Source: Tetradesmus obliquus (lineage: Eukaryota > Chlorophyta > Chlorophyceae > Sphaeropleales > Scenedesmaceae). Taken from it: DNA of 64,000 nt. Shown piece after piece: positions 24,009 to 64,000 of the stretch. The stretch's first letter is position 1. Each line of letters starts with the position of its first letter. Below the pieces are notes generated by a model. That model saw nothing but the letters and a program-made list of their open reading frames with translations. It had not been told where the DNA came from and did not search any database. The stretch is from the NCBI GenBank assembly GCA_030272155.1, contig CP126192.1, forward strand, positions 4,436,501 to 4,500,500, in the 5' to 3' direction. The position numbers were made by a program, and so were the translations under genes.

Positions 24009-24404
24009 TTTTTTTTTAAGCAAGAACGTTACAAGGGCTGACCCAAATAACTGTGCACTTGCTCCATAAAAAGATCCATTGAGAGAGTGAGGCAACCTGT
24101 TCCGCACTCACCCCACAGGTCTCTTGTACCAAGAGACGCTGTCACACGATTTTTTTTTGAAGCCAGAACGTTACAAGGGCTGACCTTAATAACTGTGCAC
24201 TTGCTCCATAAAAAGATCCATTGAGAGAGTGAGGCAACCTGTTCCGCACTCACCCCACAGGTCTCTTGTACCATGGTCTCTTGGCCAAGAGACGCTGTCA
24301 CACGATCATGCAGACAGTCCCGTGCGGGGCAGCCCCGAAAGGCATCCAGGACCTGACCGAGTGCCCAGACTCCCCTAAAATCACAGTCACGCAATGACGT
24401 CCTG
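24009..24404 (-). mobile_element. Two nested 5'-truncated LINE 3' ends
   Basis: An outer minus-strand LINE 3' end starts with a T-run at 24009-24017, is broken at 24150, and resumes at 24307-24404. An inner copy of the same 3' end (24151-24284, T-run 24151-24158) sits inside it. A 22-bp stretch of the outer copy (24129-24150) is repeated at 24285-24306, as expected of a target-site duplication. This is the first repeat met after VPS13 and marks the edge of the array. Confidence 0.75.
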
Positions 24405-25135
24405 GCCGTGGCGGCACGTCGAAGGCCGCTGCGATTACTTTTGTATGTCGGTCCTAGGCAGGTGGGGGCCTCACATGCTTGGTCATGGATTGTCCGGGAT
24501 AAATGCGTCCAGTAGGATTTTTAGCAGGCCAGTGAGTTTCCAGTGGCGGTTCACAGACACCCCTGCCAGCCCGCCTCCTTCGTCTAGGACATTCGTACGG
24601 CTTCAAATTTGAGAAAATTTGAGAAAATTTGAGAAATTTGAGAAATAAACATTTTACAAACAGGTGTAACAACGAATAAACTCTCACGAGGCACACATAG
24701 CAAATTTAACAAATGCGCCACTACGCGGGCCGGGCCGAAATTTCAACCGTGGCGGCACGTCGAAGGCCGCTGCGATTACTTTTGTATGTCGGTCCTAGGC
24801 AGGTGGGGGCCTCACATGCTTGGTCATGGATTGTCCGGGATAAATGCGTCCAGTAGGATTTGTAGCCGGCCAGTGAGTTTCCAGTGGCGGTTCACAGACA
24901 CCCCTGCCAGCCCGCCTCCTTCGTCTAGGACATTCGTACGGCTTCAAATTTGATAAATAAACATTTTACAAACAGGTGTAACAACGAATAAACTCTCACG
25001 ATGCACACACAGCAAATTTAACAAATGCGCCACTACGCGGGCCGGGCCGAAATTTCAACCGTGGCGGCACGTCGAAGGCCACTGCGATTACTTTTGTATG
25101 TCGGTCCTAGGCAGGTGGGGGCCTCACATGCTTGG
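24405..25135 (+). repeat. 311/312-bp satellite, first block
   Basis: This block has one partial and two further monomers. The monomer runs from CACTACGCGGGCCGGGCC through a GGTCCTAGGCAGGTGGGGGC core to an AT-rich end with TAAATAAACATTTTACAAAC, GGTGTAACAACG and CTCTCACGA. The block is cut at CACATGCTTGG by the minus-strand LINE that follows, and the same monomer resumes on its far side. Confidence 0.9.
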
Positions 25136-27150
25136 TTTTTTTTTTTTTTGAAGCAAGAACGTTACAAGGGCTGACCTAAATAACTGTGCACTTGCTCCAT
25201 AAAAAGATCCATTGAGAGAGTGAGGCAACCTGTTCCGCACTCACTCCACAGGTCTCTTGTACCAAGAGACGCTGTCACACGATCATGCAGACAGCCCCTT
25301 GCGGAGCAGCCCCGAAAGGCATCCAGGACCTGACCGAGTGCCCAGACTCCACTAAAATCACAGTCGCGCAATGACGTCCTGTGATGTGTGACAGACCGTG
25401 ACTGGCCCTTGAAACAAAATCTGTCCATGGCGTAACTGTCAGCTATCACTGCATGGTGACTTGTACACCTCTACAAGCTGCACTTTACAGGCAGCATTAC
25501 GACACCTACACAAGACGCCTATTAATAGGTGACGGATTGTCGACACAGACAATCCCCACCTGACTATTCATTGACTCTCCACTTCATGCAAAGCACATCC
25601 TGCTACTGACCGAACACACCCCTATGAGATATGTGGCATTCTGCAGGAAATGACACCACCTCAGGCACACAAAGCCCCACACACACAAACTTATCCACAC
25701 ATGCTGCACACATCCTCGTACTCTGCTACCCACACGCACGCATACATAACGTACTCTGCTACCCACTCACATGCATACATAACGTATCCCGGCCATCAAC
25801 TTAGCCTTTGCCATACTATTTTGCAACACATCACAACGAGGAACGACGGCCACTACTCCAACGAATGCATTGTACACCCCGCCCGAACCGTCAAAACAGA
25901 CCACCACGCCTCGTAGACCCGTGCCCAAACCATCCCTCACATGCCAGCCGCGCTGGCCCGAACCTTGATGCGCCCATTTGCGCCCATCCTATACAGTGCT
26001 CCCCACTTCTGCTCAAAGTCAACAAGTTTGATCTCAGGCGACCTTCCCTGCAGCCATGCAAACGGTATCCCACAACCTATCCTAACATCTACTTCCACCC
26101 TATCCCACTCCCTCTGAATTTGCTGCCGCAGCTCTGCCAGAAACCTACACGCCACAGCCTTAGCAGCGTATGATGAGCTGCCCGGCTCGCCAGTTGTACC
26201 CCGTTGACTGCCCATGCTGCTGCTGCTGCTGCTGCTGCCCTCTGCATCGCTGATGCCGTGGCTCTGAGATTGAGAATTGCTGCCTGCATTGTGGCTGCCG
26301 CTGCCATCGCTGCCATCGGCACTGGGCACAGTCACGCCAGCCCTGATGCTGCTGCAGCGCACCACCCAAATGGACTCCAGCAGCAGCAGACGCAGCTGTG
26401 TCCACATCTGCTGCTGCCCTGCTGGCGGCGCCCACACACTGAAGTCATCCAGCAGCAGCAGACGGCTGTTATTAACAGGGACCACTGCTCCGGGCTGCAC
26501 ACGCTGCCACACCTGTTGCGCGTACCACTGCCACGCTGCTGCAGCTACAGGGCACTCCACTAACAAGTGGGTGAGGGTCTCCAGTTGCTGCGGCTGCTGG
26601 CACTGCTGGGCTGGGCAGGTAAAGTGAGCCGGCGCGTGCCTGCTGGATGCCAGCATGCGCCGTGCGCCTACCTTCACTCCTGCATGCAGAAGCCGCCAGC
26701 CAAACACTCGCAGCCGCCTCGGCAGCTGGGTGTCTTTCAGCCGCTGATAACTCGCCACCCAGCGGTGCTGCCTGGCATTGGCAGCACCCATGGAGTGAGT
26801 GATCGGGTCCAGTAGATCATTGTGTGCTGGGCAGCTGATGCGCTGCTGTTGCTGCTCCTGTTGCTGCCGTTGAGAGCCGTGACTACTGCTGCTGCTGTTG
26901 CCGCGCGCTGTCTTGGCAGCTCCCGCTCCCTGGACGGATCCATCCAGGACGCATGGTAAGCTGCCATCATAGCTGCGTCGCTAAACCGCTGGCTGCCACT
27001 GCTGCTGCTGCTGCGATTGCCAGGCGCCTCGCTACTTTGCTGCATTTGCTGGAAGGACCGTTTCTGAGCTGCCTCCATCTCCTGCAAGCCGTCCTGTGGC
27101 GCCTCAGCACCCAGGCGGTTGCGCCACAGGCGCGGGCGCATGCCGACACC
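25136..27150 (-). mobile_element. 5'-truncated L1-type LINE copy, minus strand (about 2.0 kb)
   Basis: The poly(A) tail reads as T at 25136-25149. The copy covers the same 3' UTR and C-terminal coding region as the long plus-strand LINE and is very similar to it, but stops at 27150. It encodes the C-terminal 400 or so residues in two frames: 27141 down to about 26875, and then 26791 down to 25937 with the zinc-knuckle domain (FTCPAQQC, then HLLVEC). The frame change comes from a 2-bp insertion near 26873-26876 relative to the long copy. The satellite is interrupted at CTTGG, which is seen on both sides (25131-25135 and 27150-27154), so the target-site duplication is only 5-6 bp. Confidence 0.9.
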
Positions 27151-27532
27151 TTGGTCATGGATTGTCCGGGATAAATGCGTCCAGAAAAATTTTTATGGAG
27201 CAAGTGCACAGTTATTTGAATCAGCCCTTGTAACGTTCTTGCTTCAAAAAAAAAAAAAAGCTGCAGTTTACAGGCAGCATTACGGCTTCAAATTTGATAA
27301 ATAAACATTTTACAAACAGGTGTAACAACGAATAAACTCTCACGAGGCACACATAGCACAACTCCAAAATGGCCACTACGCGGGCCGGGCCGAAATTTCA
27401 ACCGTGGCGGCACGTCGAAGGCCGCTGCGATTACTTTTGTATGTCGGTCCTAGGCAGGTGGGGGCCTCACATGCTTGGTCATGGATTGTCCGGGATAAAT
27501 GCGTCCAGTAGGATTTTTAGCCGGCCAGTGAG
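27151..27532 (+). repeat. Satellite block with a LINE-chimaeric monomer
   Basis: The satellite resumes at TTGGTCATGG and is replaced from about 27185 by a short LINE 3' end with a 14-nt A-run (27246-27259). A 25-nt LINE-like piece (GCTGCAGTTTACAGGCAGC...) follows, and the satellite returns at about 27282. Roughly 120 bp of the normal monomer is missing. The next monomer (27369 onward) is cut at 27532 by the following LINE. The same chimaera recurs at seven other places in the array. Confidence 0.8.
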
Positions 27533-28115: not shown

Positions 28116-28262
28116 TGTCGACTTGCACACCTCTACAAGCTGCACTTTACAGGCAGCATTACGACACCTACACAAGACGCCTATTAATAGGTGACGGATT
28201 GTCGACACAGACAATCCCCACCTGACTATTCATGGACTCTCCACTTCATGCAAAGCACATCC
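28116..28262 (-). mobile_element. Inverted LINE 3' UTR fragment
   Basis: This piece is the reverse complement of LINE 3' UTR sequence near 37495-37640. It joins the poly(A) of the preceding plus-strand copy directly and runs into satellite (CTCACGATGCAC). It has no tail of its own, so it probably arose by inversion or template switching during insertion. Confidence 0.7.
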
Positions 28263-30867
28263 TCACGATGCACACATAGCAAATTTAACAAATGCGCCAC
28301 TACGCGGGCCGGGCCGAAATTTCAACCGTAGCAGCACATCGAAGGCCGCTGCGATTACTTTTGTATGTCGGTCCTAGGCAGGTGGGGGCCTCACATGCTT
28401 GGTCATGGATTGTCCGGGATAAATGCGTCCAGTAGGATTTGTAGCCGGCCAGTGAGTTTCCAGTGGCGGTTCACAGACACCCCTGCCAGCCCGCCTCCTT
28501 TGTCTAGGAAAAACGTACGGCTTCAAATTTGATTAATAAACATTTTACAAACAGGTGTAACAACGAATAAACTCTCACGAGGCACACATAGCACAACTCC
28601 AAAATGGCCACTACGCGGGCCGGGCCGAAATTGCAACCGTGGCGGCACGTCGACGGCCGCTGCGATTACTTTTGTATGTCGGTCCTAGGCAGGTGGGGGC
28701 CTCACATGCTTGGTCATGGATTGTCCGGGATAAATGCGTCCAGTAGGATTTGTAGCCGGCCAGTGAGTTTCCAGTGGCGGTTCACAGACACCCCTGCCAG
28801 CCCGCCTCCTTCGTCTAGGAAAAACGTACGGCTTCAAATTTGATAAATAAACATTTTACAAACAGGTGTAACAACGAATAAACTCTCACGAGGCACACAT
28901 AGCACAACTCCAAAATGGCCACTACGCGGGCCGGGCCGAAATTTCAACCGTGGCGGCACGTCGAAGGCCGCTGCGATTACTTTGGTATGTCGGTCCTAGG
29001 CTGGTGGGGGCCTCACATGCTTGGTCATGGATTGTCCGGGATAAATGCGTCCAGTAGGATTTGTAGCCGGCCAGTGAGTTGCCAGTGGCGTTTCACAGAC
29101 ACCCCTGCCAGCCCGCCTCCTTCGTCTAGGACATTCGTACGGCTTCAAATTTGATAAATAAACATTTTACAAACAGGTGTAACAACGAATAAACTCTCAC
29201 GAGGCACACATAGCAAATTTAACAAAAGCGCCACTACGCGGGCCGGGCCGAAATTTCAACCGTGGCGGCACGTCGAAGGCCGCTGCGATTACTTTTGTAT
29301 GTCGGTCCTAGGCAGGCGGGGGCCTCACATGCTTGGTCATGGATTGTCCGGGATAAATGCGTCCAGTAGGATTTTCAGCAGGCCAGTGAGTTTCCAGTGG
29401 CGGTTCACAGACACCCCTGCCAGCCCGCCTCCTTCGTCTAGGACATTCGTACGGCTTCAAATTTGATAAATAAACATTTTACAAACAGGTGTAACAACGA
29501 ATAAACTCTCACGATGCACACACAGCAAATTTAACAAATGCGCCACTACGCGGGCCGGGCCGAAATTTCAACCGTGGCGGCACGTCGAAGGCCACTGCGA
29601 TTACTTTTGTATGTCGGTCCTAGGCAGGTGGGGGCCTCACATGCTTGGTCATGGATTGATCGGGATAAATGCGTCCAGAAAAATGTTTATGGAGCAAGTG
29701 CACAGTTATTTAAATCAGCCCTTGTAACGTTCTTGCTAAAAAAAAAAAAAAGCTGCAGTTTACAGGCAGCATTACGGCTTCAAATTTGATAAATAAACAT
29801 TTTACAAACAGGTGTAACAACGAATAAACTCTCACGAGGCACACATAGCACAACTCCAAAATGGCCACTACGCGGGCCGGGCCGAAATTTCAACCGTGGC
29901 GGCACGTCGAAGGCCGCTGCGATTACTTTTGTATGTCGGTCCTAGGCAGGTGGGGGCCTCACATGCTTGGTCATGGATTGTCCGGGATAAATGCGTCCAG
30001 TAGGATTTGTAGCCGGCCAGTGAGTTTCCAGTGGCGGTTCACAGACACCCCTGCCAGCCCGCCTCCTTCGTCTAGGACATTCGTACGGCTTCAAATTTGA
30101 TAAATAATCATTCTACAAACAGGTGTAACAACGAATAAACTCTCACGATGCACACATAGCAAATTTAACAAATGCGCCACTACGCGGGCCGGGCCGAAAT
30201 TTCAACCGTGGCGGCACATCGAAGGCCGCTGCCATTACTTTTGTATGTCGGTCCTAGGCTGGTGGGGGCCTCACATGCTTGGTCATGGATTGTCCGGGAT
30301 AAATGCGTCCAGTAGGATTTGTAGCCGGCCAGTGAGTTTCCAGTGGCGGTTCACAGACACCCCTGCCAGCCCGCCTCCTTCGTCTAGGACATTCGTACGG
30401 CTTCAAATTTGATAAATAAACATTTTACAAACAGGTGTAACAACGAATAAACTCTCACGAGGCACACATAGCAAATTTAAGGAGCAAGTGCACAGTTATT
30501 TAGGTCAGCCCTTGTAACGTTCTTGCTTCAAAAAAAAAAAAAACGTTCTTGCTTAAAAAAAAAAAATAGCAAATTTAACAAATGCGCCACTACGCGGGCC
30601 GGGCCGAAGTTTCAACCGTGGCGGCACGTCGAAGGCCGCTGCGATTACTTTTGTATGTCGGTCCTAGGCAGGTGGGGGCCTCACATGCTTGGTCATGGAT
30701 TGTCCGGGATAAATGCGTCCAGTAGGATTTTTAGCCGGCCAGTGAGTTTCCAGTGGCGGTTCACAGACACCCCTGCCAGCCCGCCTCCTTCGTCTAGGAC
30801 ATTCGTACGGCTTCAAATTAGATAAATAAACATTCTACAAACAGGTGTAACAACGAATAAACTCTCA
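28263..30867 (+). repeat. 311/312-bp satellite array with short LINE 3' insertions
   Basis: About eight monomers, with clear period at 28604 to 28915 (311 bp). Monomers differ at a few fixed sites (GTCGAAGG or ATCGAAGG; GGACATTCG or GGAAAAACG; TTTTTAGC or TTTGTAGC). One chimaeric monomer with a LINE 3' end lies at about 29538-29790. A very short LINE insertion with two A-runs occupies 30480-30566, flanked by the 11-bp duplication TAGCAAATTTA (30469-30479 and 30567-30577). Confidence 0.9.
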
Positions 30868-31736: not shown

Positions 31737-32062
31737 CACGATGCACACATAGCAAATTTAACAAATGCGCCACTACGCGGGCCGGGCCGAAATTTCAACC
31801 GTGGCGGCACATCGAAGGCCGCTGCGATTACTTTTGTATGTCGGTCCTAGGCAGGTGGGGGCCTCACATGCTTGGTCATGGATTGTCCGGGATAAATGCG
31901 TCCAGTAGGATTTGTAGCCGGCCAGTGAGTTTCCAGTGGCGGTTCACAGACACCCCTGCCAGCCCGCCTCCTTCGTCTAGGACATTCGTACGGCTTCAAA
32001 TTAGATAAATAAACATTCTACAAACAGGTGTAACAACGAATAAACTCTCACGATGCACACAT
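31737..32062 (+). repeat. Satellite monomer bordering the long LINE
   Basis: One monomer of the 311-bp family, interrupted after GATGCACACAT (32052-32062). That string is repeated right after the LINE tail at 37966-37976. Confidence 0.9.
32052..32062 (+). repeat. Target-site duplication, left copy
   Basis: GATGCACACAT here and at 37966-37976 bracket the LINE. In uninterrupted satellite the string occurs once and is followed by AGCAAATTT. Confidence 0.9.
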
Positions 32063-32496
32063 GTCAGAAAATAGTTCAACAGGACACAGAACCTGTGATT
32101 GAGTTTACAGACGGGCAGGGCAGGTTACTCAGGGTAGCCTGGACAACGCCGTGGGGCCAGCAGGTGGCAGCGGTGGCGGTGTATGCGCCGCACGAACCCA
32201 CGGGGCGCCCAGCCTGGTTTCAGGGGCCTTATCAGGAGGCACTGGAGGCAGGCGCGCAGGGGTCCAGCCTGATTGTGGGCGGGGACTTCAACTGTGCCTT
32301 GCAGGAAATCGACGTGCAGCCAGTGGCTGGCACGCGGGCGCGACACTCGCGCCGCATGGTGGGGGCAGCGCAGCTGCAGCGCGTCACTGTGCGCTCGGGC
32401 CTGGTGGATGCGTGGCGACACTGCAACCCGCACGCCAGGCAGCCTACGCATTACAGCTACCATGGCAGCGCAGCTGGCAGCAGCAACGCGGCAGCC

Positions 32497-32545
<49 letters not shown>

Positions 32546-35500
32546 TAACAGACGCTACAGCCACAGCTCATGCTGCAGCCGCGGCGGCTGCAGTAGCGGC
32601 TGCAGCAGCAGCAGGCAGCAGGCGAGATCAGGGCCAGCCAGCAGCAGCAAATCAAGCCACGTCAGCCGGCAGGATTGACTATGTCTTCTTGTCAGCAGAC
32701 CTGGTTGAGGAGGGCTGGCTGCAGAAGGCCACACAGCACACGAGGCAGCCTTCAGATCACCGCCCTGTGGTTGTCAAGCTGCGGCCGCCTGGCATGCCGC
32801 TCCTTGGACAGCGCAGGTGGTGCTTCCCCACCTCTGCTCTGGGTGGCGCAGCTTTTGTCTCAGCTATGCAGGAGAGCCTGTCAGCAGCGGTGGAGCAGCA
32901 GCAGCAGCAGCGGCCGCGCAACAACCCAGCAGCTGAGTTTGAGCACCTTAAGCAGCATGCTGTGACTGCCACTGCAGTCATAATGCAGCGACAGAGGCTG
33001 CAGCAGCAGGCAGAACTTAGGCGGCTGCGCAGGGCGGTGGCAACAGCCGGCTGGCAGCAGCGCCAGCACAGCAATGGGCAGACGCAAACCAACCTTCAGC
33101 ATGCAGAACAGCAGTTGCTGGATTATGAAGTGCAGCAACGCCAGCAGCAGCAGGAGAAGACTGATGCGATGTACGAGTTGTACGCTGATGGCCCGTCTAG
33201 CTTTTGGGGAGCGAGGCTAGGGCAGGCCGTGCCGGAGCCGCAGTATATCAGCGCTGTGGCTGCAGCAGATGGCACCACAGTGTCCACTGGCAGCAGCGAG
33301 GGCGCGGCAGCAGCAGGCAGCCTGCTTGCAGACTTTTATGACCCTGCAGAAGACGGGCTGTTCTCGCGACGCCCCACCAACCCACAGCAGCAGCAGGAGC
33401 TGCTTGCGTGTGTGGATAAGCAGCTTTCTTCGGAGCAGCAACAGCAATGCCTCGGCCCCGCAGGCGACGGCACCATCACCTTGGAGGAGGTGACAGCGGC
33501 ACTCAACAGCATGCCTAGAGGGAAGGTGCCAGGCAGCGATGGGCTCACGTATGAGTTCTATAGCGCATTCTGGGAGCAGCTAGGACCAGCTTTTGTGGCA
33601 GCATGCAACTTCCGGTTTGGTCTGGAGGGGGCGCTGCTGTCTCCGCAGCAGCGCCTTGGGCTCATCACCTTACTGTTCAAGGGTGGCGGTAAGCCAAGGG
33701 ACCAGGCTGCCAGCTACCGCCCCATCACGCTGATGAACTGTGATGTGCAAATTCTGGCGAAGGTGGTGGTGCTGCGGGCGGCGCCAGTGCTGGACAGCGT
33801 CGTGGACAGCACTCAGACAGCGTTTGTTCCAGGCAGGGACATTGCAGACAATGTGCTGCTGCACCTGGAGGAAGTTGACTTCCTCAGGACGCAGCAGCAG
33901 CCCGGCTGCATTTTGTTTCTGGATTTTGAGAAGGCCTATGACAGGCTAGACAGGGAATGGCTGATGAAGTGCATGGCAGCAATGCAGTTCCCGCCAGGCA
34001 TGCGTAGGTGGGTACAGCTGCTGCTGGCAGGCACACAGGGCCGCATCGTGTTCAACGGCGGCCACCTCAGCAGGGTGTTTGACATCCCCTCTGGCTGCGC
34101 GCAGGGCAGCCCACTCAGCCCGCTGCTGTATGTGCTAGCAGCGCAGCCGCTGGCGGCCAAATGCAGAGCGCTGCAAGCAGCAGGGGAAGTGGACAGCATC
34201 AGCATGCCCGATGGCTCAGCAGCACCCTGCAGCATGCAGCATGCAGACGACACCACCCTGCACGCCGCCAGCAGGCAAGGCGTTGCTGTGCTGGTGAGGA
34301 AAGCAGTACAGCCGTTTTGTGCAGCGAGTGGCGCCAAGCTGGGAGTCAGCAAGTGCCAGGGCATGGAAGTGGGCACGCAGCAGCCGTTTGTAGGGGTAGA
34401 TCCAGCCACGCAGATACCGTTCCATGATACAGCACTACACCCGATCAGGCACCTGGGTCTGCTGCTGTCAGCAGCAGGCGCAGAGCCGCATGCAGCAGCG
34501 CTGTACACGCAGCGCCTGCAAACCATCACATACCGGGCGCGGCAGTGGGCACGGCAGAATCTCAGCTATTTGGGGCGCTGCGCAGTTGCGCAGCAGATGA
34601 TGGCATCTTGCATCACCTATCATGCGCAGTTCGTGCCAGTCCCAGTAGATATCATGGCCAGGATGCACCGCCGCCTCTTAGGGTTTGTGACAGAGCAGGG
34701 CTGCGCTCGAGAAGCCAACATCCGGCAGTGGAATGAAAGCCCTCCGGCAGCAGTGGCCAGCCTGCCTTTCAGCATGGGCGGAATGAGGCAGGTTGATGTC
34801 AGGGCGCACGCCACAGCAATGCAGGCACGTACAGCAGCAGCATTGCTGTCGCCGCGGCGAGCCCCATGGAAGGCCTTCATGCGGGCCAACCTGCGCCACG
34901 CACTGCCAGGACTAGGGGAGGCAGCGTTGGTGCAGCGATCAAAGGCGCCGCTGCAGGCTGCCGCCAGGGGCGGCAGGCTGCCGCTGCGCCTATCAGCATA
35001 CATAGAGGCGCTGCAAAGCGTGGGCATTCACAGGCACGTCGAGCACAGCGCCATGACCAGCCAGCAGATCCAGCTTGAGCTGCTGGTGGGGAACCACAGC
35101 GTGGGCAGCAGCTCAGATGGGCAGATGTTGGCAGCAGCCGGTGCCCTCCCTGCTCAGCTGCGCCACGGCGCAGGCACCACACTGGGGCAGGTGCAGCAGC
35201 AGCTAACTGGACAGCCGCAGCAAGATGGCATTGTGCTGCCGCCGGCATGGCTGCACACTCTGCGGGAGGGCAGCACAGGTGCATGGCAGACCGACACGCA
35301 GCAACAGTGGGCACAACAGTTGCAGCACGATGGCACCACCAAGTGCTACAAGGTGCAGCTGGATGGCAGCTTGAAGGCCACAACAGCTGTCCTAATGGAC
35401 ACAGCAGCCCTCCAATGGGCGCCATGTTGTGTGGTAGATGTAACAGCAGTGCCGCACCCTGCATTTCAGCGGCAACAACAGCAGCGGCAGCAGCGGCAGC

Positions 35501-35681
35501 AGCAGCAGCAACAGCGGCAGCAGCCAGCAGCACGGCAACAGCGGCAGCCACGACAGCAGCAACAACAGGAACGTCAGCAGCAGCAGCTGCAGCAGCCAGC
35601 TGCATGGCAACAGCAGCAGCCGCGACAGCAGCAACAACAGGAACGGCAGCAGCAGCAGCAGCAGCAGCAGCACCACCAGGG

Positions 35682-35735
<54 letters not shown>

Positions 35736-37158
35736 CCAAGGACAGCACCAGCAACAGCAGCAGCAGCAGCAATCGCGAAGCACGCCGTCATGGTACCTGG
35801 TGGGGGCTTGGGCAGACATTCGCGTAGATCCTGGTGTATGGGGGATGGGGTTTGCTGTCAGCTTGCTGCAGTTCACGCCAAAGGTGGCAACATGCAGGCT
35901 GCTGCAGGAGCAATGCAGTCGGCAGTGCAAAGAGGGATGGCTATCAGGTGTCGGCATGCGCCCGCGCCTGTGGCGCAACCGCCTGGGTGCTGAGGCGCCA
36001 CAGGACGGCTTGCAGGAGATGGAGGCAGCTCAGAAACGGTCCTTCCAGCAAATGCAGCAAAATAGCGAGGCGCCTGGCAATCGTAGCAGCAGCAGCAGTG
36101 GCAGCCAGCGGTTTAGCGACGCAGCTATGATGGCGGCTTACCATGCGTCCTGGATGGATCCGTCCAGGGAGCGGGAGCTGCCAAGACAGCGCGCGGCAAC
36201 AGCAGCAGCAGTAGTCACGGCTCAACGGCAGCAACAGGAGCAGCAACAGCAGCGCATCAGCTGCCCGGCACACAATGATCTACTGGACCCGATCACTCAC
36301 TCCATGGGTGCTGCCAATGCCATGCAGCACCGCTGGGTGGCGAGTTATCAGCGGCTAAAAGACACCCAGCTGCCGAGGCGGCTGCGAGTGTTTGGCTGGC
36401 GGCTTCTGCATGCAGGAGTGAAGGTAGGCGCACGGCGCATGCTGGCATCCAGCAGACACGCGCCGGCTCACTTTACCTGCCCAGCACAGCAGTGCCAGCA
36501 GCCGCAGCAACTGGAGACCCTCACCCACTTGTTAGTGGAGTGCCCTGTAGCTGCAGCAGCGTGGCAGTGGTACGCGCAACAGGTGTGGCAGCGTGTGCAG
36601 CCCGGAGCAGTGGTCCCTGTTAATAACAGCCGTCTGCTGCTGCTGGATGACTTCAGTGTGTGGGCCCCGCCAGCAGGGCAGCAGCAGATGTGGACGCAGC
36701 TGCGTCTGCTGCTGCTGGAGTCCATTTGGGTGGTGCGCTGCAGCAGCATCAGGGCTGGCGTGATTGTGGCCAGTGCAGATGGCAGCGATGGCAGCGGCAG
36801 CCGCAATGCAGGCAGCAATTCTCAATCTCAGAGCCACGGCATCAGCGATGCAGAGGACAGCAGCAGCAACAGCAGCAGCATGGGCAGTCAACGGGGTACA
36901 ACTGGCGAGCCGGGCAGCTCATCATACGCTGCTAAGGCTGTGGCGTGTAGGTTTCTGGCAGAGCTGCGGCAGCAAATTCAGAGGGAGTGGGATAGGGTGG
37001 AAGTAGATGTTAGGATAGGTTGTGGGATACCGTTTGCATGGCTGCAGGGAAGGTCGCCTGAGATCAAACTTGTTGACTTTGAGCAGAAGTGGGGAGCACT
37101 GTATAGGATGGGCGCAAATGGGCGCATCAAGGTTCGGGCCAGCGCGGCTGGCATGTGA
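32053..37158 (+). CDS. LINE ORF2-type polyprotein: APE endonuclease (5' truncated), reverse transcriptase, zf-RVT
   Basis: 1,701 codons without a stop. APE: SLIVGGDFNCALQE (residues about 75-88), RIDYVFLS and SDHRPVVVKL (about 210-240). The first part of the domain with its N- and E-motifs is missing. A poly-Ala insert from GCA runs (about residues 145-190) interrupts the APE loop. Reverse transcriptase: YRPITLMNCDVQILAKV (about 556), FVPGRDIADNVLL, FLDFEKAYDRLD (about 622), GCAQGSPLSPLLYVLA and QHADDTTLHA (about 728), so the catalytic aspartates are present but the usual Y/F before ADD is H. A Gln/Arg-rich linker spans about 1138-1240. The zinc-knuckle domain has C-x4-C-x10-H-x4-C around 1475-1496. 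The ATG and the next two codons belong to the satellite target site, so the start is accidental. It probably supplied or resembles the enzyme that spread the local copies. Confidence 0.88.
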
Positions 37159-37965: not shown

Positions 37966-37976
37966 GATGCACACAT
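37966..37976 (+). repeat. Target-site duplication, right copy
   Basis: GATGCACACAT directly follows the 22-nt poly(A) and continues into satellite as AGCAAATTTAAC, the sequence expected if the LINE were absent. Confidence 0.9.

Positions 37977-42529: not shown

Positions 42530-42563
<34 letters not shown>

Positions 42564-44977: not shown

Positions 44978-45007
<30 letters not shown>
44612..45007 (+). mobile_element. LINE 3' UTR copy with long poly(A)
   Basis: A plus-strand 3' end beginning TCTTGTGTAGGTGTCG (compare 37577) and ending in an A-run of about 30 nt (44980-45008), followed directly by satellite. Confidence 0.85.
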
Positions 45008-45011
<4 letters not shown>

Positions 45012-52061: not shown

Positions 52062-52726
52062 AATGGATCTTTTTATGGAGCAAGTGCACAGTTATTTAGG
52101 TCCGCCCTTGTAACGTTCTTGCTTCAAAAAAAAAAAAAAAAAAAAAACACAAGACGCCTATTAATAGGTGACGGATTGTCGACACAGACAATCCCCACCT
52201 GACTATTCATGGACTCTCCACTTCATGCAAAGCACATCCTCACGATGCACACATAGCAAATTTAACAAATGGGCGTCTTGTGTAGGTGTCGTAATGCTGC
52301 CTGTAAAGTGCAGCTTGTAGAGGTGTACAAGTCACCATTTTTTATTTTTTTTTTTTGAAGCAAGAACGTTACAAGGGCTGACCTAAATAACTGTGCACTT
52401 GCTCCATAAAAAGATCCATTGAGAGAGTGAGGCAACCTGTTCCGCACTCACTCCACAGGTCTCTTGTACCCAGAGACGCTGTCACACGATTTTTTTTTTT
52501 TTTTTTTTTGAAGCAAGAACGTTACAAGGGCTGACCTAAATAACTGTGCACTTGCTCCATAAAAAGATCCATTGATCTGTCACACGATTATGCAGACAGC
52601 CCCTTGCGGAGCAGCCCCGAAAGGCATCCAGGACCTGACCGAGTGCCCAGACTCCACTAAAATCACAGTCGCGCAATGACGTCCTGTGATGTGTGACAGA
52701 CCGTGACTGGCCCTTGAATCAAAATC
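52062..52726. mobile_element. LINE-fragment composite, higher-order repeat copy
   Basis: Same order as 47111-47780; landmark at 52273. One visible base difference from its neighbours is CACGATTATG where others have CACGATCATG (about 52585). Confidence 0.8.
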
Positions 52727-53595
52727 TTTTGTATGTCGGTCCTAGGCAGGTGGGGGCCTCACATGCTTGGTCATGGATTGTCCGGGATAAATGCGTCCAG
52801 TAGGATTTTTAGCCGGCCAGTGAGTTTCCAGTGGCGGTTCACAGACACCCCTGCCAGCCCGCCTCCTTCGTCTAGGACATTCGTACGGCTTCAAATTTGA
52901 TAAATAATCATTCTACAAACAGGTGTAACAACGAATAAACTCTCACGATGCACACATAGCACAACTCAAAAAAAAAAAAAAAAAAAAAAAAATTCAAAAT
53001 GGCCACTACGCGGGCCGGGCCGAAATTTCAACCGTGGCGGCACATCGAAGGCCGCTGCGATTACTTTTGTATGTCGGTCCTAGGCAGGTGGGGGCCTCAC
53101 ATGCTTGGTCATGGATTGTCCGGGATAAATGCGTCCAGTAGGATTTGTAGCCGGCCAGTGAGTTTCCAGTGGCGGTTCACAGACACCCCTGCCAGCCCGC
53201 CTCCTTCGTCTAGGAAAAACGTACGGCTTCAAATTTGATTAATAAACATTTTACAAACAGGTGTAACAACGAATAAACTCTCACGAGGCACACATAGCAC
53301 AACTCCAAAATGGCCACTACGCGGGCCGGGCCGAAATTTCAACCGTGGCGGCACGTCGAAGGCCGCTGCAATTACTTTTGTATGTCGGTCCTAGGCTGGT
53401 GGGGGCCTAACATGCTTGGTCATGGATTGTCCGGGATAAATGCGTCCAGTAGGATTTGTAGCCGGCCAGTGAGTTTCCAGTGGCGGTTCACAGACACCCC
53501 TGCCAGCCCGCCTCCTTCGTCTAGGACATTCGTACGGCTTCAAATTTGATAAATAAACATTCTACAAACAGGTGTAACAACGAATAAACTCTCAC
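52727..53595 (+). repeat. Satellite part of higher-order repeat
   Basis: A partial monomer, an A-run (about 52969-52992) and monomers at 52999 and 53310. Confidence 0.9.
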
Positions 53596-54254
53596 AATGG
53601 ATCTTTTTATGGAGCAAGTGCACAGTTATTTAGGTCCGCCCTTGTAACGTTCTTGCTTCAAAAAAAAAAAAAAAAAAAAACACAAGACGCCTATTAATAG
53701 GTGACGGATTGTCGACACAGACAATCCCCACCTGACTATTCATGGACTCTCCACTTCATGCAAAGCACATCCTCACGATGCACACATAGCAAATTTAACA
53801 AATGGGCGTCTTGTGTAGGTGTCGTAATGCTGCCTGTAAAGTGCAGCTTGTAGAGGTGTACAAGTCACCATTTTTTTTTTTTTTTGAAGCAAGAACGTTA
53901 CAAGGGCTGACCTAAATAACTGTGCACTTGCTCCATAAAAAGATCCATTGAGAGAGTGAGGCAACCTGTTCCGCACTCACTCCACAGGTCTCTTGTACCC
54001 AGAGACGCTGTCACACGATTTTTTTTTTTTTTTTTTTGAAGCAAGAACGTTACAAGGGCTGACCTAAATAACTGTGCACTTGCTCCATAAAAAGATCCAT
54101 TGATCTGTCACACGATCATGCAGACAGCCCCTTGCGGAGCAGCCCCGAAAGGCATCCAGGACCTGACCGAGTGCCCAGACTCCACTAAAATCACAGTCGC
54201 GCAATGACGTCCTGTGATGTGTGACAGACCGTGACTGGCCCTTGAATCAAAATC
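53596..54254. mobile_element. LINE-fragment composite, higher-order repeat copy
   Basis: Same order; landmark at 53806, 1,533 bp after the previous one. The T-run before the minus 3' end lacks the TTTTTTATTT interruption seen in other copies. Confidence 0.8.
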
Positions 54255-55119
54255 TTTTGTATGTCGGTCCTAGGCAGGTGGGGGCCTCACATGCTTGGTC
54301 ATGGATTGTCCGGGATAAATGCGTCCAGTAGGATTTTTAGCCGGCCAGTGAGTTTCCAGTGGCGGTTCACAGACACCCCTGCCAGCCCGCCTCCTTCGTC
54401 TAGGACATTCGTACGGCTTCAAATTTGATAAATAATCATTCTACAAACAGGTGTAACAACGAATAAACTCTCACGATGCACACATAGCACAACTCAAAAA
54501 AAAAAAAAAAAAAAAATCCAAAATGGCCACTACGCGGGCCGGGCCGAAATTTCAACCGTGGCGGCACATCGAAGGCCGCTGCGATTACTTTTGTATGTCG
54601 GTCCTAGGCAGGTGGGGGCCTCACATGCTTGGTCATGGATTGTCCGGGATAAATGCGTCCAGTAGGATTTGTAGCCGGCCAGTGAGTTTCCAGTGGCGGT
54701 TCACAGACACCCCTGCCAGCCCGCCTCCTTCGTCTAGGAAAAACGTACGGCTTCAAATTTGATTAATAAACATTTTACAAACAGGTGTAACAACGAATAA
54801 ACTCTCACGAGGCACACATAGCACAACTCCAAAATGGCCACTACGCGGGCCGGGCCGAAATTTCAACCGTGGCGGCACGTCGAAGGCCGCTGCAATTACT
54901 TTTGTATGTCGGTCCTAGGCTGGTGGGGGCCTAACATGCTTGGTCATGGATTGTCCGGGATAAATGCGTCCAGTAGGATTTGTAGCCGGCCAGTGAGTTT
55001 CCAGTGGCGGTTCACAGACACCCCTGCCAGCCCGCCTCCTTCGTCTAGGACATTCGTACGGCTTCAAATTTGATAAATAAACATTCTACAAACAGGTGTA
55101 ACAACGAATAAACTCTCAC
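54255..55119 (+). repeat. Satellite part of higher-order repeat
   Basis: A partial monomer, an A-run (about 54496-54516) and monomers at 54523 and 54834. Confidence 0.9.
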
Positions 55120-55790
55120 AATGGATCTTTTTATGGAGCAAGTGCACAGTTATTTAGGTCCGCCCTTGTAACGTTCTTGCTTCAAAAAAAAAAAAAAAAA
55201 AAAAAAAAAACACAAGACGCCTATTAATAGGTGACGGATTGTCGACACAGACAATCCCCACCTGACTATTCATGGACTCTCCACTTCATGCAAAGCACAT
55301 CCTCACGATGCACACATAGCAAATTTAACAAATGGGCGTCTTGTGTAGGTGTCGTAATGCTGCCTGTAAAGTGCAGCTTGTAGAGGTGTACAAGTCACCA
55401 TTTTTTATTTTTTTTTTTTGAAGCAAGAACGTTACAAGGGCTGACCTAAATAACTGTGCACTTGCTCCATAAAAAGATCCATTGAGAGAGTGAGGCAACC
55501 TGTTCCGCACTCACTCCACAGGTCTCTTGTACCCAGAGACGCTGTCACACGATTTTTTTTTTTTTTTTTTTTTGAAGCAAGAACGTTACAAGGGCTGACC
55601 TAAATAACTGTGCACTTGCTCCATAAAAAGATCCATTGATCTGTCACACGATCATGCAGACAGCCCCTTGCGGAGCAGCCCCGAAAGGCATCCAGGACCT
55701 GACCGAGTGCCCAGACTCCACTAAAATCACAGTCGCGCAATGACGTCCTGTGATGTGTGACAGACCGTGACTGGCCCTTGAATCAAAATC
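55120..55790. mobile_element. LINE-fragment composite, higher-order repeat copy
   Basis: Same order; landmark at 55336, 1,530 bp after the previous one. Confidence 0.8.
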
Positions 55791-57970
55791 TTTTGTATGT
55801 CGGTCCTAGGCAGGTGGGGGCCTCACATGCTTGGTCATGGATTGTCCGGGATAAATGCGTCCAGTAGGATTTTTAGCCGGCCAGTGAGTTTCCAGTGGCG
55901 GTTCACAGACACCCCTGCCAGCCCGCCTCCTTCGTCTAGGACATTCGTACGGCTTCAAATTTGATAAATAATCATTCTACAAACAGGTGTAACAACGAAT
56001 AAACTCTCACGATGCACACATAGCAAATTTAACAAATGCGCCACTACGCGGGCCGGGCCGAAATTTCAACCGTGGCGGCACATCGAAGGCCGCTGCGATT
56101 ACTTTTGTATGTCGGTCCTAGGCAGGTGGGGGCCTCACATGCTTGGTCATGGATTGTCCGGGATAAATGCGTCCAGTAGGATTTGTAGCCGGCCAGTGAG
56201 TTTCCAGTGGCGGTTCACAGACACCCCTGCCAGCCCGCCTCCTTCGTCTAGGACATTCGTACGGCTTCAAATTTGATAAATAAACATTTTACAAACAGGT
56301 GTAACAACGAATAAACTCTCACGAGGCACACATAGCAAATTTAAGGAGCAAGTGCACAGTTATTTAGGTCAGCCCTTGTAACGTTCTTGCTTCAAAAAAA
56401 AAAAACGTTCATGCTTAAAAAAAAAAATAGCAAATTTAACAAATGCGCCACTACGCGGGCCGGGCCGAAGTTTCAACCGTGGCGGCACGTCGAAGGCCGC
56501 TGCGATTACTTTTGTATGTCGGTCCTAGGCAGGTGGGGGCCTCACATGCTTGGTCATGGATTGTCCGGGATAAATGCGTCCAGTAGGATTTGTAGCCGGC
56601 CAGTGAGTTTCCAGTGGCGGTTCACAGACACCCCTGCCAGCCCGCCTCCTTCGTCTAGGAAAAACGTACGGCTTCAAATTTGATTAATAAACATTTTACA
56701 AACAGGTGTAACAACGAATAAACTCTCACGAGGCACACATAGCACAACTCCAAAATGGCCACTACGCGGGCCGGGCCGAAATTTCAACCGTGGCGGCACG
56801 TCGAAGGCCGCTGCGCGGAGCAAGTGCACAGTTATTTAGGTCAGCCCTTGTAACGTTCTTGCTTCAAAAAAAAAAAAAAATAAAAAATGCACACATAGCA
56901 AATTTAACAAATGCGCCACTACGCGGGCCGGGCCGAAATTTCAACCGTGGCGGCACATCGAAGGCCGCTGCGATTACTTTTGTATGTCGGTCCTAGGCAG
57001 GTGGGGGCGTCACATGCTTGGTCATGGATTGTCCGGGATAAATGCGTCCAGTAGGATTTGTAGCCGGCCAGTGAGTTTCCAGTGGCGGTTCACAGACACC
57101 CCTGCCAGCCCGCCTCCTTCGTCTAGGAAAAACGTACGGCTTCAAATTTGATTAATAAACATTTTACAAACAAGTGTAACAACGAATAAACTCTCACGAT
57201 GCACACACAGCAAATTTAACAAATGCGCCACTACGCGGGCCGGGCCGAAATTTCAACCGTGGCGGCACGTCGAAGGCCACTGCGATTACTTTTGTATGTC
57301 GGTCCTAGGCAGGTGGGGGCCTCACATGCTTGGTCATGGATTGATCGGGATAAATGCGTCCAGAAAAATGTTTATGGAGCAAGTGCACAGTTATTTAAAT
57401 CAGCCCTTGTAACGTTCTTGCTTCAAAAAAAAAAAAAAAGCTGCAGTTTACAGGCAGCATTACGGCTTCAAATTTTATAAATAAACATTTTACAAACAGG
57501 TGTAACAACGAATAAACTCTCACGAGGCACACATAGCACAACTCCAAAATGGCCACTACGCGGGCCGGGCCAAAATTTCAACCGTGGCGGCACGTCGAAG
57601 GCCGCTGCGATTACTTTTGTATGTCGGTCCTAGGCAGGTGGGGGCCTCACATGCTTGGTCATGGATTGTCCGGGATAAATGCGTCCAGTAGGATTTTTAG
57701 CCGGCCAGTGAGTTTCCAGTGGCGGTTCACAGACACCCCTGCCAGCCCGCCTCCTTCGTCTAGGACATTCGTACGGCTTCAAATTTGATTAATAAACATT
57801 TTACAAACAGGTGTAACAACGAATAAACTCTCACGAGGCACACATAGCACAACTCCAAAATGGCCACTACGCGGGCCGGGCCGAAATTTCAACCGTGGCG
57901 GCACGTCGAAGGCCGCTGCGCGGAGCAAGTGCACAGTTATTTAGGTCAGCCCTTGTAACGTTCTTGCTTC

Positions 57971-58001
<31 letters not shown>

Positions 58002-58752: not shown

Positions 58753-58800
<48 letters not shown>

Positions 58801-59032
58801 CGCTGCGATTACTTTTGTATGTCGGTCCTAGGCTGGTGGGGGCCTAACATGCTTGGTCATGGATTGTCCGGGATAAATGCGTCCAGTAGGATTTGTAGCC
58901 GGCCAGTGAGTTTCCAGTGGCGGTTCACAGACACCCCTGCCAGCCCGCCTCCTTCGTCTAGGACATTCGTACGGCTTCAAATTTGATAAATAAACATTCT
59001 ACAAACAGGTGTAACAACGAATAAACTCTCAC
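55791..59032 (+). repeat. Satellite block with short LINE 3' insertions and a 43-nt A-run
   Basis: About ten monomers with a double-tailed LINE insertion (about 56345-56427), LINE 3' ends at about 56816-56886, 57921-57995 and 58704-58797, and a chimaeric monomer at about 57223-57470. The A-run at 58755-58797 is the longest in the window and is followed by GGCCGCTGCG. Confidence 0.85.
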
Positions 59033-59696
59033 AATGGATCTTTTTATGGAGCAAGTGCACAGTTATTTAGGTCCGCCCTTGTAACGTTCTTGCTTCAAAA
59101 AAAAAAAAAAAAAAAAAAACACAAGACGCCTATTAATAGGTGACGGATTGTCGACACAGACAATCCCCACCTGACTATTCATGGACTCTCCACTTCATGC
59201 AAAGCACATCCTCACGATGCACACATAGCAAATTTAACAAATGGGCGTCTTGTGTAGGTGTCGTAATACTGCCTGTAAAGTGCAGCTTGTAGAGGTGTAC
59301 AAGTCACCATTTTTTATTTTTTTTTTTTGAAGCAAGAACGTTACAAGGGCTGACCTAAATAACTGTGCACTTGCTCCATAAAAAGATCCATTGAGAGAGT
59401 GAGGCAACCTGTTCCGCACTCACTCCACAGGTCTCTTGTACCCAGAGACGCTGTCACACGATTTTTTTTTTTTTTTTTTGAAGCAAGAACGTTACAAGGG
59501 CTGACCTAAATAACTGTGCACTTGCTCCATAAAAAGATCCATTGATCTGTCACACGATCATGCAGACAGCCCCTTGCGGAGCAGCCCCGAAAGGCATCCA
59601 GGACCTGACCGAGTGCCCAGACTCCACTAAAATCACAGTCGCGCAATGACGTCCTGTGATGTGTGACAGACCGTGACTGGCCCTTGAATCAAAATC
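59033..59696. mobile_element. LINE-fragment composite, higher-order repeat copy
   Basis: Same order; landmark at 59245. It has a private base change (GTAATACTGCC instead of GTAATGCTGCC, near 59267). Confidence 0.8.
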
Positions 59697-62647
59697 TTTT
59701 GTATGTCGGTCCTAGGCAGGTGGGGGCCTCACATGCTTGGTCATGGATTGTCCGGGATAAATGCGTCCAGTAGGATTTTTAGCCGGCCAGTGAGTTTCCA
59801 GTGGCGGTTCACAGACACCCCTGCCAGCCCGCCTCCTTCGTCTAGGACATTCGTACGGCTTCAAATTTGATAAATAATCATTCTACAAACAGGTGTAACA
59901 ACGAATAAACTCTCACGATGCACACATAGCACAACTCAAAAAAAAAAAAAAAAAAAAAACTCCAAAATGGCCACTACGCGGGCCGGGCCGAAATTTCAAC
60001 CGTGGCGGCACATCGAAGGCCGCTGCGATTACTTTTGTATGTCGGTCCTAGGCAGGTGGGGGCCTCACATGCTTGGTCATGGATTGTCCGGGATAAATGC
60101 GTCCAGTAGGATTTGTAGCCGGCCAGTGAGTTTCCAGTGGCGGTTCACAGACACCCCTGCCAGCCCGCCTCCTTCGTCTAGGAAAAACGTACGGCTTCAA
60201 ATTTGATTAATAAACATTTTACAAACAAGTGTAACAACGAATAAACTCTCACGAGGCACACACAGCAAATTTAACAAATGCGCCACTACGCGGGCCGGGC
60301 CGAAATTTCAACCGTGGCGGCACGTCGAAGGCCACTGCGATTACTTTTGTATGTCGGTCCTAGGCAGGTGGGGGCCTCACATGCTTGGTCATGGATTGAT
60401 CGGGATAAAAGCGTCCAGAAAAATGTTTATGGAGCAAGTGCACAGTTATTTAAATCAGCCCTTGTAACGTTCTTGCTTCAAAAAAAAAAAAAGCTGCAGT
60501 TTACAGGCAGCATTACGGCTTCAAATTTGATAAATAAACATTTAACAAACAGGTGTAACAACGAAAAAACTCTCACGAGGCACACATAGCACAACTCCAA
60601 AATGGCCACTACGCGGGCCGGGCCAAAATTTCAACCGTGGCGGCACGTCGAAGGCCGCTGCGATTACTTTTGTATGTCGGTCCTAGGCAGGTGGGGGCCT
60701 CACATGCTTGGTCATGGATTGTCCGGGATAAATGCGTCCAGTAGGATTTTTAGCCGGCCAGTGAGTTTCCAGTGGCGGTTCACAGACACCCCTGCCAGCC
60801 CGCCTCCTTCGACTAGGACATTCGTACGGCTTCAAATTTGATAAATAATCATTCTACAAACAGGTGTAACAACGAATAAACTCTCACGATGCACACATAG
60901 CAAATTTAACAAATGCGCCACTACGCGGGCCGGGCCGAAATTTCAACCGTGGCGGCACATCGAAGGCCGCTGCGATTACTTTTGTATGTCGGTCCTAGGC
61001 AGGTGGGGGCCTCACATGCTTGGTCATGGATTGTCCGGGATAAATGCGTCCAGTAGGATTTGTAGCCGGCCAGTGAGTTTCCAGTGGCGGTTCACAGACA
61101 CCCCTGCCAGCCCGCCTCCTTCGTCTAGGACATTCGTACGGCTTCAAATTTGATAAATAAACATTTTACAAACAGGTGTAACAACGAATAAACTCTCACG
61201 AGGCACACATAGCAAATTTAAGGAGCAAGTGCACAGTTATTTAGGTCAGCCCTTGTAACGTTCTTGCTTCAAAAAAAAAAAACGTTCATGCTTAAAAAAA
61301 AAATAGCAAATTTAACAAATGCGCCACTACGCGGGCCGGGCCGAAGTTTCAACCGTGGCGGCACGTCGAAGGCCGCTGTGATTACTTTTGTATGTCGGTC
61401 CTAGGCAGGTGGGGGCCTCACATGCTTGGTCATGGATTGTCCGGGATAAATGCGTCCAGTAGGATTTGTAGCCGGCCAGTGAGTTTCCAGTGGCGGTTCA
61501 CAGACACCCCTGCCAGCCCGCCTCCTTCGTCTAGGAAAAACGTACGGCTTCAAATTTGATTAATAAACATTTTACAAACAGGTGTAACAACGAATAAACT
61601 CTCACGAGGCACACATAGCACAACTCCAAAATGGCCACTACGCGGGCCGGGCCGAAATTTCAACCGTGGCGGCACGTCGAAGGCCGCTGCGCGGAGCAAG
61701 TGCACAGTTATTTAGGTCAGCCCTTGTAACGTTCTCGCTTCAAAAAAAAAAAAAAAAAAAAAAAGGCCGCTGCGATTACTTTTGTATGTCGGTCCTAGGC
61801 AGGTGGGGGCCTCACATGCTTGGTCATGGATTGTCCGGGATAAATGCGTCCAGTAGGATTTTTAGCCGGCCAGTGAGTTTCCAGTGGCGGTTCACAGACA
61901 CCCCTGCCAGCCCGCCTCCTTCGTCTAGGACATTCGTACGGCTTCAAATTTGATAAATAATCATTCTACAAACAGGTGTAACAACGAATAAACTCTCACG
62001 ATGCACACATAGCACAACTCAAAAAAAAAAAAAAAAAAAAAAACTCCAAAATGGCCACTACGCGGGCCGGGCCGAAATTTCAACCGTGGCGGCACATCGA
62101 AGGCCGCTGCGATTACTTTTGTATGTCGGTCCTAGGCAGGTGGGGGCCTCACATGCTTGGTCATGGATTGTCCGGGATAAATGCGTCCAGTAGGATTTGT
62201 AGCCGGCCAGTGAGTTTCCAGTGGCGGTTCACAGACACCCCTGCCAGCCCGCCTCCTTCGTCTAGGAAAAACGTACGGCTTCAAATTTGATTAATAAACA
62301 TTTTACAAACAGGTGTAACAACGAATAAACTCTCACGAGGCACACATAGCACAACTCCAAAATGGCCACTACGCGGGCCGGGCCGAAATTTCAACCGTGG
62401 CGGCACGTCGAAGGCCGCTGCAATTACTTTTGTATGTCGGTCCTAGGCTGGTGGGGGCCTAACATGCTTGGTCATGGATTGTCCGGGATAAATGCGTCCA
62501 GTAGGATTTGTAGCCGGCCAGTGAGTTTCCAGTGGCGGTTCACAGACACCCCTGCCAGCCCGCCTCCTTCGTCTAGGACATTCGTACGGCTTCAAATTTG
62601 ATAAATAAACATTCTACAAACAGGTGTAACAACGAATAAACTCTCAC
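59697..62647 (+). repeat. Satellite block with short LINE 3' insertions
   Basis: About nine monomers with a chimaeric monomer (about 60278-60525), a double-tailed LINE insertion (about 61220-61304), a LINE 3' end at about 61692-61764 and an A-run at about 62021-62043. Monomers at 62051 and 62362 are 311 bp apart. Confidence 0.85.
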
Positions 62648-63412
62648 AATGGATCTTTTTATGGAGCAAGTGCACAGTTATTTAGGTCCGCCCTTGTAAC
62701 GTTCTTGCTTCAAAAAAAAAAAAAAAAAATATGGAGCAAGTGCACAGTTATTTAGGTCAGCCGTTGTAACGTTCTTGCTTCAAAAAAAAAAAAAAAAAAA
62801 AGGTGCACTTTACAGGCAGCATTACGACACCTACACAAGACGCCTATTAATAGGTGACGGATTGTCGACACAGACAATCCCCACCTGACTATTCATGGAC
62901 TCTCCACTTCATGCAAAGCACATCCTCACGATGCACACATAGCAAATTTAACAAATGGGCGTCTTGTGTAGGTGTCGTAATGCTGCCTGTAAAGTGCAGC
63001 TTGTAGAGGTGTACAAGTCACCATTTTTTATTTTTTTTTTTTGAAGCAAGAACGTTACAAGGGCTGACCTAAATAACTGTGCACTTGCTCCATAAAAAGA
63101 TCCATTGAGAGAGTGAGGCAACCTGTTCCGCACTCACTCCACAGGTCTCTTGTACCCAGAGACGCTGTCACACGTTTTTTTTTTTTTTTTTTTTTGAAGC
63201 AAGAACGTTACAAGGGCTGACCTAAATAACTGTGCACTTGCTCCATAAAAAGATCCATTGATCTGTCACACGATCATGCAGACAGCCCCTTGCGGAGCAG
63301 CCCCGAAAGGCATCCAGGACCTGACCGAGTGCCCAGACTCCACTAAAATCACAGTCGCGCAATGACGTCCTGTGATGTGTGACAGACCGTGACTGGCCCT
63401 TGAATCAAAATC
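62648..63412. mobile_element. LINE-fragment composite, extended higher-order repeat copy
   Basis: Same order as the other composites but about 100 bp longer, because a second plus LINE 3' end (about 62730-62802) follows the first. The same double 3' end is present at 42617-42783. Landmark at 62959. Confidence 0.8.
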
Positions 63413-64000
63413 TTTTGTATGTCGGTCCTAGGCAGGTGGGGGCCTCACATGCTTGGTCATGGATTGTCCGGGATAAATGCGTCCAGTAGGATTTTTAGCC
63501 GGCCAGTGAGTTTCCAGTGGCGGTTCACAGACACCCCTGCCAGCCCGCCTCCTTCGTCTAGGACATTCGTACGGCTTCAAATTTGATAAATAATCATTCT
63601 ACAAACAGGTGTAACAACGAATAAACTCTCACGATGCACACATAGCACAACTCAAAAAAAAAAAAAAAAAAAAAACTCCAAAATGGCCACTACGCGGGCC
63701 GGGCCGAAATTTCAACCGTGGCGGCACATCGAAGGCCGCTGCGATTACTTTTGTATGTCGGTCCTAGGCAGGTGGGGGCCTCACATGCTTGGTCATGGAT
63801 TGTCCGGGATAAATGCGTCCAGTAGGATTTGTAGCCGGCCAGTGAGTTTCCAGTGGCGGTTCACAGACACCCCTGCCAGCCCGCCTCCTTCGTCTAGGAC
63901 ATTCGTACGGCTTCAAATTTGATAAATAATCATTCTACAAACAGGTGTAACAACGAATAAACTCTCACGATGCACACATAGCACAACTCAAAAAAAAAAA
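63413..64000 (+). repeat. Satellite block running off the window
   Basis: A partial monomer, an A-run (about 63653-63675), one full monomer from 63683 and the start of the next A-run at 63990. The array clearly continues beyond the window. Confidence 0.9.

Follow-up and report, generated by a model that had tools for sequence, protein, structure and literature searches.

A LINE-plus-satellite array of Tetradesmus obliquus as a probable part of a regional centromere

Introduction

What kind of chromosomal structure is a block of tens of kilobases in which copies of a long interspersed nuclear element (LINE) alternate with a 311-bp satellite? The question is raised by the window analysed here, the whole 64,000-nucleotide stretch G000:C2:4,436,501-4,500,500 of the green alga Tetradesmus obliquus, whose 104.66 Mb genome is assembled in 17 contigs (C1 to C17, with C2 measuring 8.85 Mb). 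The LINE-plus-satellite array, which has no strand assigned as a whole, enters the window at position 24,009 and fills it to position 64,000. An initial annotation, made from the letters of the window, had proposed that the array is a centromere or a subtelomere. Based on sequence comparisons across the genome, we conclude that it is very probably part of the regional centromere of C2, with an equivalent on each of the other 16 chromosomes.

Results

Best-hit tiling assigned 20,865 bp of window positions 24,009-64,000 to the satellite and 18,208 bp to the LINE, covering 97.2% of the interval with just two gaps longer than 60 bp (178 and 78 bp); the LINE reference used here, as in the 2-kb zone samples described below, carried 33 satellite bases at its 5' end. 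The piece of LINE open reading frame (ORF) used for the long stretches read on C2, C6 and C3 had the same flaw, inflating the LINE share of satellite-rich stretches by about one tenth, while the 36-mer and reverse transcriptase (RT) counts given below were unaffected and the reference was corrected before monomer identities were compared. The array differs in base composition from its left flank, with G+C content dropping from 0.64 left of position 24,009 to 0.51. All four ORFs of at least 250 aa between 24 and 64 kb lie inside the two longest LINE copies, so that, as initially annotated, no host gene is recognisable there. The 40-kb array of the initial annotation is real, but its extent was underestimated: position 64,000 is not its end, and with about 45 kb more beyond the window the whole array measures about 85 kb (C2:4,460,509-4,545,415). 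Within it, the stretch at about C2:4.5205-4.5245 Mb is just 46% LINE or satellite.

Of the LINE copies in the window, the longest (32,063-37,965, + strand) is truncated at its 5' end inside the endonuclease and ends in a poly(A) tail. Its ORF of 1704 aa (32,044-37,158) contains an RVT_1 reverse transcriptase domain at aa 555-784 (33,706-34,395, + strand; Pfam, E 8e-28), together with a zf-RVT match slightly under the curated cut-off and a weak, truncated Exo_endo_phos match (21.3 bits against a cut-off of 24.5). Among the solved structures in the PDB, LINE-1 ORF2 chains are the closest (E 8e-33), and R2 scores less well (E 1.5e-12). Judged by these features, the element in the array belongs to the L1-type LINEs, having an endonuclease, a reverse transcriptase and poly(A) ends, and the two components named by the initial annotation do fill the array.

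We then considered the distribution of this LINE in the genome. With the RT domain as query (100 of 169 first-look candidates scored), 44 of the 100 matches listed were 83-100% identical, and all 44 fell on 13 contigs, within a single zone of each; the other 56 were 31-36% identical. Elsewhere in the genome, 27 matches covered the whole RT query, in ORFs of 808 to 1898 aa. The 3' part of the LINE gave 149 matches, all of them inside the zones (40 of 572 candidates scored). We also searched for a 36-mer of the ORF2 3' end, allowing up to three mismatches. It matched the genome 127 times, compared to 0 matches of a reversed control; 98 of the 100 matches listed were located in one zone per contig, which added C1, C3, C7 and C13. 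Altogether, all 17 contigs were found to have the LINE, in a single zone each (C16 and C17 from the RT search, the rest from the 36-mer matches listed), and it is nearly absent elsewhere among the listed places. Arrays per chromosome, which the initial annotation had suggested counting, thus come to one per contig, with two copies on C5 as the exceptions among the listed places. As far as their limits were seen, the zones lie at 4.42-4.54 Mb on C1, 4.46-4.55 Mb on C2, 5.22-5.24 Mb on C3, 5.42-5.52 Mb on C4, 2.61-2.67 Mb on C5, 3.10-3.20 Mb on C6, 2.49-2.54 Mb on C7, 4.08-4.25 Mb on C8, 4.13-4.21 Mb on C9, 3.18-3.30 Mb on C10, 3.77-3.85 Mb on C11, 3.69-3.78 Mb on C12, 3.17 Mb on C13 (one copy among the matches listed), 1.38-1.50 Mb on C14, 3.48-3.54 Mb on C15, 3.83-3.84 Mb on C16 and 1.91-1.99 Mb on C17. 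We read these zones as probable centromeres because one internal LINE-dense block per chromosome is the pattern by which, in the cited parts of the reports, the centromeres of Chlamydomonas reinhardtii and Coccomyxa were assigned (PMC8226300, PMC10030371, PMC3446292).

The 36-mer also varies between chromosomes. Among the matches listed, it occurred with 0-1 mismatch on C2, C4, C6 and C9-C15, and in one form with two substitutions on C1, C3, C5, C7 and C8, which suggests two LINE subfamilies split by chromosome (100 of 127 matches listed).

The positions of the zones bear directly on the second proposal of the initial annotation, a subtelomeric Zepp-like array capping or flanking the chromosome ends. 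Zepp itself was first found in a telomeric region of Chlorella, according to the title of that study. However, the C2 array is situated at 50-51% of C2, about 4.3 Mb, rather than tens of kilobases, from the TTTAGGG repeats in which this contig ends at 8,847,849, and every zone, as far as known, is more than 0.5 Mb from the ends of its contig, that of C16 coming nearest at 0.57 Mb. As the array and the known zones are internal and far from the ends, we reject the subtelomere for this assembly, provided that its contigs are correctly joined; it has next to no probability left, and keep the centromere half of the proposal as the probable one.

TTTAGGG matches numbered 390 in forward and 400 in reverse orientation genome-wide; among the places listed, the repeats were present at both ends of C1, at the right end only of C2 and at the start of C3. 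The telomere repeat of C. reinhardtii is TTTTAGGG, in contrast to the TTTAGGG seen here. As a candidate telomere repeat of the present genome, TTTTAGGG was discarded, with two matches only, and the contig ends that were read showed TTTAGGG. RbcS exons, in two alignments per exon, likewise differ from the green-algal chains aligned with them, and the largest contig measures 11.1 Mb; together with the telomere repeat, this makes C. reinhardtii an unlikely source, while RbcS and light-harvesting genes point to a green alga.

We next turn to how the array is built. Tandem arrays with a period of 311 or 312 were detected by Tandem Repeats Finder between window positions 28,262 and 62,647, the cleanest run being 28,262-30,480 (+ strand, period 312, 7.1 copies). 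A 39-base stretch of the satellite has 61 copies in the window when up to two mismatches are allowed, compared to 0.00 copies expected from 100 shuffles; all 61 are on the + strand and to the right of position 24,534. The satellite keeps the + strand throughout the window, whereas LINE pieces are found in either orientation. At the left border, the tiling shows LINE tails against the GC-rich flank (24,009-24,404, - strand), followed by a 5'-truncated LINE copy of 2,016 bp (25,136-27,151, - strand) which tiling and junctions show to be inserted in satellite. The LINE copies are nested and mostly 5'-truncated.

Short target-site duplications, poly(A) tails and 5' truncation are the marks of target-primed reverse transcription. 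The longest LINE copy is flanked by two copies of GATGCACACAT in satellite (32,052-32,062 and 37,966-37,976, both + strand), and the six insertions tested have 11, 6, 12, 14, 13 and 13 bases beside poly(A) common to both flanks, where two or three bases of the 12- and 14-base strings may belong to the tail, and both 13-base cases go back to a single insertion. The insertions that the initial annotation described are therefore real; it had, though, taken LINE and satellite to be repeatedly inserted into each other, and most LINE pieces are instead copies multiplied along with the satellite. This follows from the sharing of junctions and from the repetition of whole blocks and segments. A 124-kb stretch of C2, which includes 24 kb of flank, contains 107 LINE ends with poly(A), followed by 33 distinct 14-mers; the six commonest of these account for 75 of the ends. 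In 110 kb of C6, 76 such ends are followed by 33. These junction counts are approximate, since one junction may be counted as two where its tail varies in length, and separate insertions at the same site may be counted as one. Nested LINE tails form a composite block, with no strand assigned (47,103-47,781), which recurs in the tiling with the same internal order at 48,641-49,312, 52,054-52,727, 53,588-54,255, 55,112-55,791 and 59,025-59,697, six times in all within the window, and as two variants at 42,715-43,393 and 62,640-63,413. At a higher order, the window contains two copies of a segment about 4.9 kb long (44,925-49,858 and 49,861-54,823, both + strand), which are 98.4% identical over an alignment of 4,977 columns.

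Taken together, these observations show that the L1-type LINE inserted both into satellite and into copies of itself, and that the resulting copies are 5'-truncated and poly(A)-tailed and have short target-site duplications. Tandem and segmental duplication then amplified the satellite together with the LINE pieces it had captured, so that the sampled chromosomes have nearly uniform versions of their own. The LINE presumably lands in the zones by recognising centromeric chromatin or its DNA, and the repeated block would carry the CENH3 nucleosomes on which the kinetochore is built.

The satellite, like the LINE, is shared between zones. Relatives were present in 14 of the 17 zones (C5, C13 and C14 were barely sampled). 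A blast search of 3-kb samples of 11 other zones with the C2 monomer found relatives on C4, C8, C9, C10, C11, C15 and C16 and a weak match on C17, and none in the samples of C5, C12 and C14. C12 was added by a genome search with the C16 monomer, and C17, whose array has a period of 322, was assigned to the family through a profile match (E 3e-16). In 2-kb samples of C1, C7 and C13, relatives were seen in C1 and C7, while those of C3 and C6 are known from the longer stretches read in these zones. In five genome searches with satellite queries (5 of 284, 39 of 433, 36 of 230, 16 of 16 and 36 of 336 candidates scored), the listed matches were confined to the LINE zones; the C17 search, in which all 16 candidates were scored, was complete and returned 122 matches, all at C17:1.907-1.980 Mb.

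Monomers are 95-99% identical within a chromosome (eight contigs with at least two monomers, some with two to four) and 50-93% identical between chromosomes (ten contigs, C9 being left out and C4 and C10 represented by one monomer each). By similarity, C1, C2, C3, C4, C6, C8, C9, C10 and C15 form one group, C7, C11, C12 and C16 a second, and C17 a third. The satellite thus shows what is expected of a regional satellite centromere, namely monomers uniform per chromosome and higher-order repeats.

These data also speak to an assembly artefact, in which repeats would have collapsed, or been spuriously multiplied, where sequences were joined. Repetitive DNA is difficult to assemble, and in the right flank of the C2 array a tandem repeat with a 3,682-bp unit matches itself perfectly at that distance over the 9,318 bases compared. 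Against this, copies within the arrays differ by a few percent, the chromosomes have their own versions, the stretches read on C2 (124 kb), C6 (110 kb) and C3 (30 kb) are free of N, and C1 carries telomere repeats at both ends. We therefore regard an artefact as very unlikely.

Several observations weigh against the centromere assignment. Two LINE copies, C5:4,666,199 and C5:4,667,594, lie outside a zone, 2 Mb from that of C5, possibly as a relic or a former centromere. A further 27 of the 127 36-mer matches are beyond those listed (with three mismatches, or with two beyond C8) and may lie anywhere, and among the matches listed C13 has one LINE copy and C3 two. Other relatives of L1, with an RT identity of about 32%, cluster locally and not once per chromosome; since distant relatives cluster too, clustering alone is no proof of a centromere. 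Finally, no satellite turned up in the samples taken from C5, C13 and C14, so that it may not be universal among the zones, although these samples hold too few non-LINE bases (25, 484 and 380, respectively) to decide the matter.

A different explanation would be that the array is a pericentromeric or other heterochromatic block which tolerates a targeted LINE and satellite, the functional centromere adjoining it or being located elsewhere. Other elements do occur in or near the zones, with another LINE in that of C6 and the 3,682-bp tandem repeat to the right of the C2 array, and the zone of C8 spans a wide interval (about 4.08-4.25 Mb). However, the occurrence of one zone per contig, with near absence of the LINE elsewhere among the listed places, is what has been published for algal centromeres. 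We consider a heterochromatic block unlikely, and the regional centromere remains our preferred assignment.

Discussion

The closest parallels come from other green algae. In C. reinhardtii, ZeppL-1_cRei is described as the major centromeric component, and ZeppL clusters coincide with the mapped centromeres of 15 chromosomes (PMC8226300). According to the cited parts of the reports, ZeppL resembles the present LINE in being of L1 type, in forming one cluster per chromosome on 17 chromosomes, in its absence or near absence elsewhere and in its gene-poor surroundings, and differs in that it dominates clusters of 252-480 kb (PMC8226300, PMC10030371); here, by contrast, about half of the tiled array in the window is satellite with chromosome-specific versions and higher-order repeats. 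Coccomyxa subellipsoidea C-169 has one Zepp cluster per chromosome, which was proposed to be the centromere, and the description of nested copies in mostly internal clusters also fits our array (PMC3446292). The Zepp clusters of that species are reported as local GC peaks of 1.5-42.3 kb (PMC3446292), whereas the array described here is a GC trough, with 0.51 compared to 0.64 to its left.

In Chlorella sorokiniana, where the centromeres are backed by CENH3 chromatin immunoprecipitation sequencing, and in C. pyrenoidosa, tandemly repeated satellites are reported to be absent from the centromeres (PMC11005252). These are likewise green-algal regional centromeres rich in transposable elements, although the main constituents given for the genus are long terminal repeat (LTR)/Copia, L1 and RTE-X elements, with no tandem satellite (PMC11005252). 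The initial annotation knew of no dedicated satellite in the Zepp-bearing species, which agrees with the relevant parts of two of these reports (PMC11005252, PMC8226300). Among the listed titles and first lines of abstracts of open-access articles in PubMed Central, which did not include the C. reinhardtii version 6 genome paper, we found no LINE-plus-satellite centromere in a green alga.

The likeness to Zepp and ZeppL concerns arrangement and L1 type, and was established by setting the array beside their descriptions. By this analogy, the array likely works as the Zepp and ZeppL centromeres do, with a satellite added. Compared to the algal centromeres described, the novelty would be a chromosome-specific satellite which, in the window, takes a nearly equal share with the putatively centromeric LINE. 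Human alpha satellite also consists of chromosome-specific monomers that are uniform within an array and is organised in higher-order repeats, whereas the fully read array of T. obliquus spans tens of kilobases and is broken at short intervals by a single LINE family.

It is tempting to speculate about an intermediate centromere design, in which the LINE feeds fragments into higher-order repeats of the satellite and a conserved core of about 62 bases is bound by a protein of the kinetochore or of CENP-B-like type and may also guide the LINE. The 62-base window that is best conserved between satellite groups is the one aligned by blast (rank 1 of 312), the core ranks second in the comparison of C7 with C16 and 14th or 30th within the first group, depending on the members included, and a permutation test on three sequences gave p 0.013 (the C9 monomer was left out of the rank and permutation tests). 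Both the ranks and the permutation test are biased in favour of the core, as the distant members of the family were found through the core itself. Within arrays, the core ranks 200 (C2), 24 (C6) and 81 (C3) of 312 in uniformity, 1 being the most uniform, and is thus not consistently more uniform than the rest of the monomer in these three arrays. The full dyad GGCACCCGTGCC is present in the core of two of the ten representative monomers (C7 and C17), which counts for a protein-bound core; the other eight have imperfect forms, which counts against it. We regard this design as doubtful.

The green-algal centromeres described are made of transposable elements, as far as the cited parts of the reports go (PMC8226300, PMC10030371, PMC3446292, PMC11005252); those of many plants and animals are made of satellites. 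If our assignment is true, a LINE and a satellite that share most of the sampled centromere zones would offer a test of the change from transposon to satellite centromeres, with LINE insertions turning into parts of higher-order repeats. The 17 zones would be natural replicates for asking whether the LINE or the satellite carries CENH3.

A number of additional features were observed in the window and elsewhere in the genome. No Rfam family scored above its gathering score in the window. The C6 zone contains a different LINE (C6:3,115,001-3,125,000) with an RVT_1 match (E 8e-24), a weak endonuclease match and a further ORF of 1845 aa. Relatives of L1 with an RT identity of about 31-32% form dense clusters at C8:1.465-1.538, C1:4.96-5.00 and C1:7.98-8.06 Mb. 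The 3,682-bp tandem repeat on C2 extends over about 4.547-4.560 Mb and encodes ORFs of 308 and 317 aa, for which no Pfam match was found at E 0.01. In the GC-rich left flank of the array, window positions 5632-6109 are occupied by a 43-bp minisatellite with 11.1 copies and 100% matches.

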